From positions 868,001 through 932,000 of the forward strand of contig JAHBTY010000001.1 in NCBI GenBank assembly GCA_019638355.1: 64,000 bases of DNA, written 5' to 3'. Below are positions 18,080-22,830 of this stretch, one piece after another; the first letter of the stretch is position 1, and every line of letters begins with the position of its first letter. The notes beneath the pieces were generated by a model. That model was given only the letters and a program-made list of their open reading frames with translations, ran no database searches and was not told the origin of the DNA. The position numbers and the translations under genes are program-made. This DNA is from Cyclobacteriaceae bacterium. GTDB lineage: Bacteria > Bacteroidota > Bacteroidia > Cytophagales > Cyclobacteriaceae.

Positions 18080-19306
18080 TCAGGCCGTTAGGCGCTCAAC
18101 AACCACCGGCTGTGGAGCTACTGTAAGGTTTGGGTGAGGTGCGAGAATAACACTTACATCATCGCGCCCGGCCCATTCCTGAAGTTTTTCAAGGTGTATG
18201 GTTCCTTGCAGGTATTGATGGCCTTTGCCCTGATAGCCGCCTTTAAAATTTTCAAAGTCGCTGCTGCTGATGGATGTTCCTTCCGGGAAGCTGACCACTA
18301 CATCTACCAATGCCTCGTTTGAGAAGGGCAGGCCATCGCCTTGTGTAAACTTTTTATACTCGTAGCGATAATCGAATGTAAGTGCCGAAATATCGGAAAG
18401 CACGGCCGACCCGGTAGGATAACTACCCGCACCTTTGCCAATAAACACTTGCTTTTCCGCGAAAGCGCCTTGCACCAATACTGCATTGTACTCGTTGCGC
18501 ACAGCCGCAAGCGTATTATCCAATGGAATAAACTGCGGAGCCACAAAGCCAACAATGCTGCCTTTGAGTTTGTAGGCACGCGCCACCAGTTTAATGGTAA
18601 GATTATTTTCGCGCGCATATTTTAGATCAACAGCCGAAATGTTTTGAATGCCTACGTTAATGATGTTTTCCGGTTTAACAAACACTCCGAATGTATGTGC
18701 AATGGCAATGGTGAGTTTGTATTTTGGATCGAAGCCTTTTACATCCAACGATGGATCAGTTTCGGCAAAGCCAAGATCTTGTGCTGCCTTCAATGCTTCG
18801 GCATAACTTTTTTTCTCGTCAAATACTTTGGTGAGAATATAGTTGGTAGAACCGTTGAAGATACCTTCAATGCTGGTGATCAAATCATTATCGTAATACT
18901 CCTCCAGGTTGCGCAAGATGGGAATACTGCCGCACACTGAACCTTCGTACAGGATGGAGCGATCATATTTTTGTTGCAGATCATAGATTTCTTCCAAATG
19001 TTCGGCCAGCATTTTTTTGTTGGCGGTAACTACGTGCTTACCGTTTTGAATTGATTTTTTAACAATATCAAACGCTGCAGTGGCATCGTCAATCAATTCA
19101 ACCACCACATCTATTTCGGGGTCGTTTAAAATATCGTTGGCTTCGTATGTAAAGTAGTTTGTATCAATAATGCGCTGTTTATCGCGATTCTTAACACAGA
19201 TTTTTTTTATTTCGGCCTTAACTCCGTGCGTTTCGTTTAATACGTGATAAAGGCCTTGCCCCACACATCCAAAACCAAACAAGCCTAACTTTAATTTCTT
19301 CTTCAT
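18080..19306 (-). CDS. hom: Homoserine dehydrogenase
   Basis: It reduces aspartate semialdehyde to homoserine, the branch point to methionine and threonine. The N-terminal NAD(P)-binding fold has GLFGFGCVGQGLY, the catalytic region shows GSVCGSIPIL and GIFNGSTNYILTK, and the substrate segment is AETDPSLDVKGFDPKYK. At 408 residues without an ACT or aspartokinase domain, it is the monofunctional form. It overlaps metX by four bases (ATGA) and is the last gene of the SAM-riboswitch-controlled operon, so here it feeds methionine synthesis. Confidence 0.93.
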   Translation of the reverse strand: MKKKLKLGLFGFGCVGQGLYHVLNETHGVKAEIKKICVKNRDKQRIIDTNYFTYEANDILNDPEIDVVVELIDDATAAFDIVKKSIQNGKHVVTANKKMLAEHLEEIYDLQQKYDRSILYEGSVCGSIPILRNLEEYYDNDLITSIEGIFNGSTNYILTKVFDEKKSYAEALKAAQDLGFAETDPSLDVKGFDPKYKLTIAIAHTFGVFVKPENIINVGIQNISAVDLKYARENNLTIKLVARAYKLKGSIVGFVAPQFIPLDNTLAAVRNEYNAVLVQGAFAEKQVFIGKGAGSYPTGSAVLSDISALTFDYRYEYKKFTQGDGLPFSNEALVDVVVSFPEGTSISSSDFENFKGGYQGKGHQYLQGTIHLEKLQEWAGRDDVSVILAPHPNLTVAPQPVVVERLTA

Positions 19307-20346
19307 ACTAAGGTTTCTTTCTTTACTTCTGTTCTTAGAAATTTTCGTACACTTTGTTTAAACTGATCAAACTCTACCAAAAAACCATCGTGCCCATGCA
19401 GCGAGGTTATGGTGTCTAATCTTGCATCGGGTATGTGGTGTGCTAAAAATTCCTGTTCCCGCAATGGAAACAGTAAATCAGTATCAATACCAATAACCCA
19501 TGTTTTTGCGTTGATGGTTGAAAGTGCTGCCTCTACACTTTGCCTGTTGCGCCCCACGTTGTGGCTATCCATCATTTTGGTTAGCGTCCAATAAGTGAAC
19601 GCATTAAACCGATTGGCCAGCTTTTGCCCCTGGTAGCGTTGGTACGATGCAGCCCTGAAATCATCGGTTTTATCGATCGTTTTTTCACTTTGTGTTTGCT
19701 GAAAGGTATCGTACGTGCGAAATGAAATCATGCCGATGGCGCGTGCGGTTTTCATGCCTTCCACACCCGCACGAGCATCATCTTCTTTCCAGGTAGCATC
19801 AGCCGCAATGGCCATCCGTTGGGCTTCGTTGAAGGCAATGCCCCATGGTGAATGAAATGCATTAGTAGCAATGGGAATAATTCGGTCAAATACATTTGGT
19901 TGAAGAATAGCCCACTCCAAAACTTGTTGACCACCCAGTGAACCCCCCACCAACGTATGAATCTTTTCAATACCCAAATGCTGACGAAGTAAATCAAAAC
20001 TTCTTACCACATCGCGGTTGGTAATCTCCGGAAAGGAATGATAATACGGATTGCCTGTTTGCGGATTGATTGAAAGTGGCCCGGTTGAACCATAACACCC
20101 ACCCAATGTGTTGGCACAAATAATAAAATAGTCGCGCGGATCAAATGGTGTGGTGTCTGTAAATAATTCTTTCCACCAATCGGTAAAATCGGAACTGCCG
20201 GTAAGGGCATGACAAATCCAAACTACGTTACTGCGGTCTTTGTTGAGTTGGCCAAGCGTAGTGTACTTAAGCTGGAAAGCCGGGAGTTTTCCCCCGGTTT
20301 CCAACTGGAACTCACTGGCAAAGTGAAATATCTGATCTGTTTTCAT
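19303..20346 (-). CDS. metX: Homoserine O-acetyltransferase
   Basis: An alpha/beta-hydrolase-fold enzyme that acetylates homoserine for direct sulfhydrylation. The nucleophile elbow GGSLGGQQVLEWA, the oxyanion/lid region with CHALTGSSD and the C-terminal HGHDGFLVEFDQF (catalytic His and Asp) are all present. The length of 347 residues is standard. It lies between metY and hom and overlaps hom by four bases. The substrate (acetyl- or succinyl-CoA) cannot be settled by eye, but pairing with MetY favours acetyl. Confidence 0.93.
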   Translation of the reverse strand: MKTDQIFHFASEFQLETGGKLPAFQLKYTTLGQLNKDRSNVVWICHALTGSSDFTDWWKELFTDTTPFDPRDYFIICANTLGGCYGSTGPLSINPQTGNPYYHSFPEITNRDVVRSFDLLRQHLGIEKIHTLVGGSLGGQQVLEWAILQPNVFDRIIPIATNAFHSPWGIAFNEAQRMAIAADATWKEDDARAGVEGMKTARAIGMISFRTYDTFQQTQSEKTIDKTDDFRAASYQRYQGQKLANRFNAFTYWTLTKMMDSHNVGRNRQSVEAALSTINAKTWVIGIDTDLLFPLREQEFLAHHIPDARLDTITSLHGHDGFLVEFDQFKQSVRKFLRTEVKKETLV

Positions 20347-20447: not shown

Positions 20448-21797
<1,350 letters not shown>

Positions 21798-21913: not shown

Positions 21914-22348
21914 TTAATTCAATGAAAAATTAATGGGTGTAACATTGCGCAGGTTATCATTTACCGGGCATCGGTTTTCAATTTCGTGCAACCACTTCGT
22001 TTTCAAAACCTCATCAATTTTGGTTTTGGTTTTAAGTGACACAGTGAGTTGTTGGTACCCGGCACGTTCGGTAAATGAAGTTCCAAACAAACGAGCCGGA
22101 TTTAAATCGCCTTCAATATCAATTTGAAGATCTTTCAAATCAATATTTAGTTCTTTGGCAGTGATGTGTGCCACCACATTAATACATCCGGCATAACCGG
22201 CCAGAATATACTCAACAGGATTTGGGGCAAGGTTGGTACCGCCCAACTCTGCTGGTTCATCAACAATAAATTTGAAGCCGCGGGTTTCAATTTCCGTACG
22301 GGCCGGGGTTTCGCTTTTTGAGTTTATAGAAAATTTGAGATTAGACAT
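21914..22348 (-). CDS. OsmC-family protein
   Basis: OsmC/Ohr-fold protein, a family of thiol-dependent peroxidases and related sulfur proteins. The core shows PNPVEYILAGYAGCINVVAHITAKE, with the first conserved cysteine, and NRCPVNDNLRN, with the second. The start at 22348 (MSNLKFSINSKSE) is chosen; the longer frame runs upstream into the leader region. Its place as the first full-size gene of a riboswitch-controlled methionine operon suggests a role in sulfur metabolism or in handling reactive sulfur species rather than general osmotic stress. This is an inference from context. Confidence 0.85.
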   Translation of the reverse strand: MSNLKFSINSKSETPARTEIETRGFKFIVDEPAELGGTNLAPNPVEYILAGYAGCINVVAHITAKELNIDLKDLQIDIEGDLNPARLFGTSFTERAGYQQLTVSLKTKTKIDEVLKTKWLHEIENRCPVNDNLRNVTPINFSLN

Positions 22349-22433: not shown

Positions 22434-22480
22434 GGCTAGTGTGTTGCCGGAAGCGCTACGCTTCAATACTGCAACAAGCC
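22434..22480 (-). promoter_or_regulatory. Long stacked hairpin right after the cysteine-rich ORF
   Basis: On the minus strand three successive stems stack: GGCT/AGCC, GTTGC/GCAAC and GAAGCG/CGCTTC with loop TAG. It starts two bases past the TAA of the 48-codon ORF. There is no T-run, so it is not a simple terminator. It may sense whether a ribosome reaches the stop codon, or may be an mRNA stabiliser. Confidence 0.55.
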
Positions 22481-22481
22481 T

Positions 22482-22628
22482 TTAACAGCAACAACACATA
22501 CAACCCTTTGGATGAGGATTGCACATTTGTGCAAGTGTGTAAATGATGTTTGAAGAAAGTTGATCGAGTGAGTTTTTCAGGTTTTGAAATCCTGATCGCA
22601 CCTGGCGGATGAAAAGTTTTGTTTTCAT
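22482..22628 (-). CDS. 48-residue cysteine-rich leader ORF in the met operon
   Basis: The ATG at 22628 lies nine bases after the 3' strand of the SAM aptamer's closing stem. The product begins MKTKLFIRQVRSGFQNLKNS and ends NPHPKGCMCCCC before TAA, so five of its last six residues are Cys. It is preceded by AAGTAAA rather than a strong ribosome site. It is not a shadow of another gene, as both flanks are non-coding. Poly-cysteine leader peptides acting as cysteine-responsive attenuators are known in mycobacteria; an analogous role is inferred here. Alternatively it could be a small metal- or thiol-binding protein. Confidence 0.7.
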   Translation of the reverse strand: MKTKLFIRQVRSGFQNLKNSLDQLSSNIIYTLAQMCNPHPKGCMCCCC

Positions 22629-22637
22629 TTTACTTTA

Positions 22638-22765
22638 CCGGTTTATAGTTCTCCTCAGCACCTTGCCGGGAGCAGGATTTAGCACCGTTTCTTTCCGATT
22701 TTACTCGGGTGAAGGTTGCTAGTGTTTCACAGAGCCTGTACTCTCCACACTTCTTTATAAATCGG
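22638..22765 (-). promoter_or_regulatory. SAM-I (S-box) riboswitch aptamer
   Basis: Minus strand: the closing stem P1 is CCGATTTATA with TATAAACCGG (one mismatch). Inside it are the S-box landmarks AAAGAAGTGTGGAGAG, GCTCTGTGAAACACTAGCAACC and the highly characteristic GGTGCTAAATCCTGC. It lies upstream of the osmC-metY-metX-hom operon, as expected for repression by S-adenosylmethionine. No T-run terminator follows directly. The aptamer ends next to the start codon of the cysteine-rich ORF, which favours control of translation or of downstream structure. Confidence 0.88.
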
Positions 22766-22798: not shown

Positions 22799-22830
22799 CA
22801 AACGTATAGTGGTTTGGTAGAGTTTCCAAA
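22799..22830 (-). promoter_or_regulatory. Promoter of the met operon
   Basis: On the minus strand TTTG is separated by 20 bases from TACGTTTG, matching the Bacteroidota consensus. The expected start of transcription (about 22790) is some 25 bases before the SAM aptamer. Confidence 0.7.

Follow-up and report, generated by a model that had tools for sequence, protein, structure and literature searches.

A SAM-I riboswitch followed by a cysteine-tailed leader ORF: a candidate two-input control region ahead of methionine and sulfur genes in Bacteroidota

The locus and its layout

What does a short open reading frame (ORF) that ends in a run of cysteine codons do between a SAM riboswitch and a methionine/sulfur operon? 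The locus that raises this question lies on the minus strand of the window (the whole stretch of 64,000 nucleotides from a Cyclobacteriaceae bacterium that was analysed), where the order is aptamer, cysteine ORF, about 130 nt of RNA, an OsmC-like gene, metY, metX and hom. A likely promoter -7 element, TACGTTTG (TAnnTTTG), was read from the sequence at 22799–22806 and is followed by a SAM-I riboswitch aptamer at 22640–22763 (RF00162; 64.6 bits against a cut-off of 44.4, E 9.6e-13). The leader ORF, supported by its conserved position and its cysteine tail, occupies 22482–22628 and comprises 48 amino acids and a stop codon (translation MKTKLFIRQVRSGFQNLKNSLDQLSSNIIYTLAQMCNPHPKGCMCCCC); it ends KGCMCCCC, with four cysteine codons (TGT TGT TGC TGT, 22485–22496) abutting the stop. 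Its ATG lies 11 nt past the final base of the aptamer and about 165 nt downstream of the inferred start of transcription. An earlier note on this DNA had described just such an ORF behind a SAM aptamer and before a methionine/sulfur operon, which the aptamer score and the family assignments of the downstream genes bear out; it had also put nine bases between aptamer and start, a gap that is in fact 11 nt.

Past the stop codon, the single three-stem hairpin proposed in the earlier note is better described as two neighbouring elements that have a few bases in common. The first, hairpin H1 (22481–22433), was identified from the sequence and from folds and has the arms AGGCTTGTTGC / GCAACACACTAGCCT with an inner GAAGCG-type stem; the second, element H2 (22439–22396), was defined by alignments and a covariance model, R1, and consists of covarying stems around a GUGAC loop (22419–22415). 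The operon then begins with the OsmC-like gene (21914–22348, its start picked by comparing relatives), which matches PF02566 with 59.7 bits (cut-off 27.5), and continues with metY (O-acetylhomoserine sulfhydrylase, 20448–21770; TIGR01326, 673.2 bits, cut-off 495.1), metX (homoserine O-acetyltransferase, 19303–20346; NF001209, 335.5 bits, cut-off 331) and hom (homoserine dehydrogenase, 18080–19306; NF004976, 330.5 bits, cut-off 205). The same genome holds a second SAM aptamer, which precedes a gene with a PF02574 homocysteine S-methyltransferase domain (termed metH here) and lacks a cysteine ORF. Carriage of the leader on plasmids was considered and set aside, a plasmid search having given no match.

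We assign a probability of about 0.7 to the reading that this region is a two-input leader of the methionine/sulfur operon; translation of the ORF, stalling on it, and the direction and size of any response have not been shown. The layout is kept while most of the peptide has changed, and it therefore looks like a control switch for SAM and cysteine. The joining of a cysteine leader to a SAM-I riboswitch, as suggested in the earlier note, thereby gains support from comparison, since the cysteine tail is kept while the peptide bodies diverge; that the leader responds to cysteine supply is itself an inference from sequence, without expression data.

Aptamer classes and the cysteine tail

All 110 SAM aptamers detected in 58 relatives were read individually, and they split by helix P1 into an AU-rich class A, typically GATTTATA...TATAAACC, and a class B, typically CGCTTATC...GATAAGCG. 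The two classes were first noticed by eye and only later fixed as a rule, under which an aptamer with AUAAA in the P1 3' strand counts as class A and a cysteine-tail ORF must have its first ATG 5–15 nt past the aptamer, a length of at most 110 aa and at least three cysteines among the last ten residues (sorting by the P1 5' strand gives classes of 61 and 49 aptamers, and by the 3' strand 58 and 52). A cysteine-tail ORF that satisfies this rule follows 45 of the 58 class A aptamers and 1 of the 52 in class B; the remaining class A regions carry two cysteines (5), fewer (5) or no ATG (3). Control ATG ORFs from the same class A regions pass in 1 of 150 cases (Fisher p 2.6e-34). The rule was kept unchanged for a fresh set of 64 aptamers from order-level genomes that had not been read before; among the matches listed, 22 of 40 class A and 1 of 24 class B aptamers pass (Fisher p 2.9e-5), as does 1 of 104 control ORFs, and the class A failures comprise 2 with two cysteines, 6 with fewer, 9 with no ATG in the required interval and 1 that runs into metX. 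Class A leaders without a cysteine ORF are thus common, and both class B positives depend on sorting by the 3' strand (in the second, the 5' strand resembles class A). The p-values overstate the significance because the genomes are related to one another and not independent. The layout of aptamer and cysteine-tail ORF nevertheless exceeds chance, and the conservation beside related riboswitches that the earlier note had proposed to look for is present in both sets. Throughout, the fixed-rule counts use the first ATG, and for lengths, start context, spacers and first-set gene counts we chose the ATG, GTG or TTG that maximises the cysteines.

At least 11 families of the same order contain one or more aptamers with a cysteine-tail leader. 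A pattern scan gave 80 loci among the matches listed, 26 of them SAM-like by one motif; 18 of these were taken to Rfam, and none of the other 8 has a three-cysteine tail. RF00162 was confirmed in 18 of 18, and 13 of 18 pass the fixed rule (again among the matches listed), including Fulvivirga kasyanovii (Cytophagales), Pontibacter mucosus, Pontibacter flavimaris, Mucilaginibacter aquaedulcis, Pedobacter rhizosphaerae, P. segetis and P. changchengzhani (the last two with three scattered cysteines). The Pedobacter species belong to Sphingobacteriaceae, so that the leader also occurs in that family; the loci of Dyadobacter psychrotolerans and Rhodonellum psychrophilum failed the rule. A Chitinophagales genome passes with the tail CCCCCCC, and a Flavobacteriia genome with a 12-aa peptide, MKKRMCCCCYEK. 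A phylum-wide sample, in which 90 aptamers were read among the matches listed, marks the limits of the distribution: within the class and outside the order, 3 of 7 listed class A aptamers pass (each of them from the single family f22), and 0 of 38 in class B, while two more class A leaders there have two cysteines (one of them, L315 of family f25, ends MRMRMPMSCFSYMCA). Within the window's family and outside its own genus, 1 of 4 class A aptamers among the matches listed passes; outside the class, none of the 38 listed aptamers passes and none belongs to class A.

The peptides themselves combine a persistent tail with a changeable body. Narrowing the 54 peptides with at least two tail cysteines to those with bodies under 50% alike leaves 38, and in these cysteine accounts for 40.4% of residues in the last 12 positions but 2.2% in the body, a difference that is partly by construction, given that only peptides with at least two tail cysteines were admitted. 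The final residue is cysteine in 42 of the 54, both cysteine codons are in use (UGU:UGC = 184:77), and the number and spacing of the cysteines differ between leaders, as do the bodies between genera.

These patterns bear on the possibility, also raised in the earlier note, of a small thiol- or metal-binding protein; the ORF would then encode a functional product, co-regulated with the sulfur operon, that uses the cysteines at its C-terminus to bind a metal or to react with thiols. Such a protein would be in keeping with the conservation of the body among six close relatives from the window's subclade (dN < dS in 15 of 15 pairs, dN/dS about 0.08–0.65) and with the presence of OsmC, a thiol protein, as the next gene in that subclade. 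Against it, the 38 bodies are less than 50% alike, lengths range from 7 to 72 aa (with starts chosen for the cysteine frame) and include the 12-aa version MKKRMCCCCYEK, and the ORF is bound to one aptamer class at one spacing; moreover, the window's peptide matches nothing in Pfam or NCBIfam, which rules out a known family in these collections. We consider a thiol- or metal-binding protein decidedly improbable. Because the bodies diverge while the cysteine tail stays, the ORF is most likely a leader peptide, a judgement made without expression data, and it has the usual traits of one: it is short, it carries its cysteine run near the stop codon and its body is otherwise poorly conserved across genera.

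Methionine is also enriched in the tails (34 of 456 residues, or 7.5%, against 1.8% of the body; p 2.7e-7), a figure that the selection for cysteine does not affect. The leader could accordingly read methionine and cysteine codons jointly, reporting on the general supply of sulfur amino acids and not on cysteine alone, and the ending of L315, MRMRMPMSCFSYMCA, agrees with such a role. Yet the same tails hold 184 cysteines to 34 methionines (having been chosen for at least two cysteines), many have no methionine, and an AUG ahead of UGU may reflect RNA pairing, so that joint sensing remains possible but doubtful. A further alternative is an arrest peptide, whose nascent chain would sense SAM or another metabolite in the exit tunnel, with the cysteine run as the arrest motif and not as a sensor of cysteinyl-tRNA. 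The methionine enrichment and the conserved body in the window's subclade could be accommodated in this way; the variation of the bodies between genera and of cysteine number and spacing could not easily be, and to our knowledge known arrest motifs are unlike tails that vary so. We regard arrest as unlikely and retain the two-input leader, with its cysteine codons as the second sensor, as the preferred reading.

Start site and RNA beyond the stop codon

The position of the start codon suggests how SAM could act on the ORF. In 56 leaders the ATG lies 6–14 nt after P1, mostly 9–11, and hence within reach of the P1 3' strand, which in the window is TATAAACC at 22640–22647, or -19 to -12 from the leader AUG according to the covariance alignment. 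The start context of these 56 leaders has A at -3 (64%) and at -6 (59%) and an A-rich second codon, along with an A-rich stretch from -17 to -12 that is supplied by the P1 3' strand. The same positions tune initiation in Flavobacterium, and Bacteroidota mRNAs lack Shine-Dalgarno sequences (PMC6847099). Judged by sequence, these starts resemble those of well-translated ORFs in Bacteroidota, although translation itself has not been shown. In translational SAM-I switches the ribosome binding site sits in the 3' side of P1 (PMC2258182). In two relatives metX itself starts 7 nt (L138) and 9 nt (L516) downstream of a class A aptamer, where it is probably under direct translational control by SAM without a leader ORF. 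Since the metX start occupies the same spot, P1 probably gates any ORF that starts there.

Upstream of the aptamer, TAnnTTTG is found within 70 nt in 42 of 61 class A regions, compared with 10 of 48 in class B and a shuffled mean of 2.5 for class A, and its commonest position is 41–43 nt upstream of the class A aptamer. We take this motif to be the Bacteroidota promoter consensus.

The spacer between leader and gene is mostly 107–165 nt long. Only 3 of 50 class A spacers are terminator-like, and a classical attenuator with an intrinsic terminator is therefore unsupported and was rejected for class A; the terminator-like match in the window (22431–22404) is H2, without a true U tract. Strong terminators do occur in 6 of 47 class B spacers, all six in leaders of metB-like genes (L034, L035, L036, L037, L038 and L110; dG -15 to -18; PF01053 for L036). 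A single aptamer class thus seems to be coupled to more than one kind of expression platform within the same genomes.

In folds of the window the 3' arm of H1 can pair instead with the cysteine codons. Selection might then preserve the UGU/UGC repeats for their part in RNA structure, where they form an arm of H1, with their coding sense a coincidence. An anti-cysteine arm, GCAACA, is conserved in the genus-level leaders and able to pair with the cysteine codons, as this would require; however, pairing between cysteine codons and spacer falls below 0.05 on its own in just 2 of 38 leaders (mean z -0.54, combined p 0.0046) and is thus weak and not general, and class A leaders under the fixed rule have the run in the frame of the first ATG past P1. 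We judge a coding coincidence very unlikely, and take the run to be read as codons in the two-input leader.

H2 was characterized in the window's genus, where it is formed by the stems CUAACC/GGUUAG and UGCC/GGCA and the GUGAC loop. For four of its eight predicted pairs, at least one sequence has both partners changed, and in an alignment adjusted by hand 241 of 260 cells are paired, where shuffling gives a mean of 86% (the adjustment moved a one-column gap in the sequences that have it at column 22). The alignments draw on 23 leaders chosen by a regular expression that holds GTGAC (alignment A1 excludes L088 and L005, and A2 also L004), and it is because of this selection that the loop is invariant in them; among three R1 matches from outside the selection, L019 and L090 keep GUGAC and L007 has GUGGC. 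R1, which was trained on 20 of the 25 leaders that it matches, finds one copy of H2 in each of 25 of the 58 genomes, all of one genus, and all 25 copies have a SAM aptamer no more than 400 nt upstream, so that a multi-copy element can be discarded. H2 has no match in Rfam, and a known Rfam element after the ORF was also rejected, the only hit being RT-9 (E 0.055, 24.8 bits against a cut-off of 46.1). H2 may mark a place where a protein binds, or it may be an aptamer of unknown kind or some other further sensor. It is probably dispensable for the general mechanism, because leaders outside the genus have no match to it.

Downstream genes, a possible mechanism and known systems

The genes behind the leader, taken as the first gene matching one of nine reference proteins, are specific. 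Among the matches listed, the 75 class A leaders with a cysteine tail are followed by metY in 46 cases, OsmC in 7 (with metY next), metX in 3, cysH in 2 and others in 17 (YceI, ATP-grasp, TonB-receptor or unassigned genes), and by metH in none; metH, by comparison, lies downstream of 55 of 76 class B aptamers and of 5 of 23 class A aptamers without a cysteine tail (likewise among the matches listed). Pfam backs the cysH, YceI, TonB plug and ATP-grasp assignments for representative loci. In the first set, metY is separated from the leader by an OsmC-like gene in 7 of 51 class A cysteine leaders. In the Chitinophagales genome the aptamer and CCCCCCC leader are followed by a cysH-like and then a cysD-like gene, named by sequence likeness only. 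The pathway fit is direct for cysH (2 of 75) and cysD, and metY (53 of 75 counting OsmC-metY, among the matches listed) uses sulfide. A cysteine sensor placed before sulfide-producing or sulfide-using steps and absent before metH fits a role in sulfur supply.

The architecture is conserved and the cysteine tail retained ahead of these genes, and the following mechanism could account for both. In a first step, inferred by combining the spacing with the known design of translational SAM-I switches and the relatives with metX at the same spot, SAM would close P1, whose 3' strand would form part of the ribosome landing site, and so block translation of the leader; when SAM is low, P1 would open and the leader would be translated. 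In a second step, suggested by the cysteine run at the stop codon, the ribosome would read the supply of cysteinyl-tRNA at the end of the leader, stalling on the cysteine codons when cysteine is short and otherwise finishing and leaving. The third step is the least certain: as long as a ribosome sits at the leader's end, it would keep the operon on, either by keeping Rho off the untranslated spacer or by holding a hairpin open. Rho-dependent termination of the untranslated spacer, or reinitiation, are the best candidates for the link from stalling to expression. If SAM blocks the leader, then its translation should favour expression, and a stalled ribosome should do so even more, from which it follows that the operon would be most active, and reach strong expression only, under a joint shortage of SAM and cysteine, when homocysteine is best made from sulfide by MetY. 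For the wider proposal, of a widespread Bacteroidota gate in which a SAM-I aptamer licenses a poly-cysteine sensor ORF, SAM and cysteinyl-tRNA are read serially before metY or cysH, and H2 is added in one genus, we would put the chances only a little above even.

Each half of this arrangement is known. Poly-cysteine leader peptides have been described in Actinobacteria (PMC1262725; Canestrari et al. 2020, the latter through papers that cite it), and these Actinobacteria leaders and the mycobacterial polycysteine short ORFs resemble ours in having cysteine codons near the stop and sulfur genes downstream; attenuation without conserved terminator hairpins has been reported for the Actinobacteria leaders too (PMC1262725). 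The mycobacterial ORFs differ in being leaderless, to go by the title, and the parts of the source available do not mention a riboswitch, whereas the ORF in the window starts with an ATG behind a SAM-I aptamer, inside the leader, and thus lacks the leaderless start. Translational SAM-I switches with the ribosome binding site in P1 share the aptamer class and the use of the P1 3' strand, but gate the gene where here a cysteine-tail leader would be gated instead (PMC2258182). Other systems are comparable in outline. In the ppe2 leader of Mycobacterium tuberculosis, which has a B12 riboswitch and a translated uORF, the downstream gene likewise depends on a riboswitch-controlled leader, but the ligand is B12, the link is reinitiation and the abstract gives no run of amino-acid codons (PMC11260477). 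The Salmonella mgtA leader with mgtL similarly unites metabolite sensing and an ORF with proline codons in one 5' region, but answers to Mg2+ and proline through stem-loop attenuation (PMC6460261). The uORFC-8-2 element of Rhodobacterales also has tandem cysteine codons in a uORF, but precedes cysS only, with a predicted intrinsic terminator and, in the text at hand, no mention of a riboswitch (PMC8632094); the ORF in the window stands before OsmC-metY and not cysS, and no U tract follows H2. At Sinorhizobium meliloti metA, a SAM-II riboswitch also has a translational output that is not the nearest AUG, but the aptamer class differs and no leader peptide with cysteine codons appears in the abstract (PMC9373788).

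We recognised no report of a SAM riboswitch joined to a cysteine leader in the open-licence literature, which was covered mostly as titles and the beginnings of abstracts. Within that scope, what is new is the serial arrangement of SAM-I aptamer and poly-cysteine ORF, kept across an order and beyond. If the proposed mechanism is true, one leader would combine information on SAM, the end product, with information on cysteine, the sulfur donor pool, through two kinds of sensor in series, the output of the riboswitch would be a sensor ORF and not a gene directly, and the locus would offer a concrete handle on attenuation in Bacteroidota.

Cysteine-tail ORFs also occur without an aptamer, one genome having such a leader before sulfite reductase. 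These leaders are rare, with 2 of 9 sulfite reductase loci carrying one (a long run is missing from one of the two) and 0 of 26 PAPS reductase loci, so that the cysteine leader is for the most part not a common stand-alone module before sulfate-assimilation genes. Individual examples have sulfite reductase, a peroxiredoxin-like gene or a TonB receptor-like gene downstream (L399, L402 and L367, respectively; genome G039), and another (L406, G055) is followed by no long ORF in the stretch read. Finally, six leaders (L069, L061, L094, L108, L082 and L106) place a class A aptamer and a cysteine-containing tail before YceI-like, ATP-grasp and TonB-receptor genes, for which the shared leader, if the proposed reading is right, predicts functions in sulfur metabolism.
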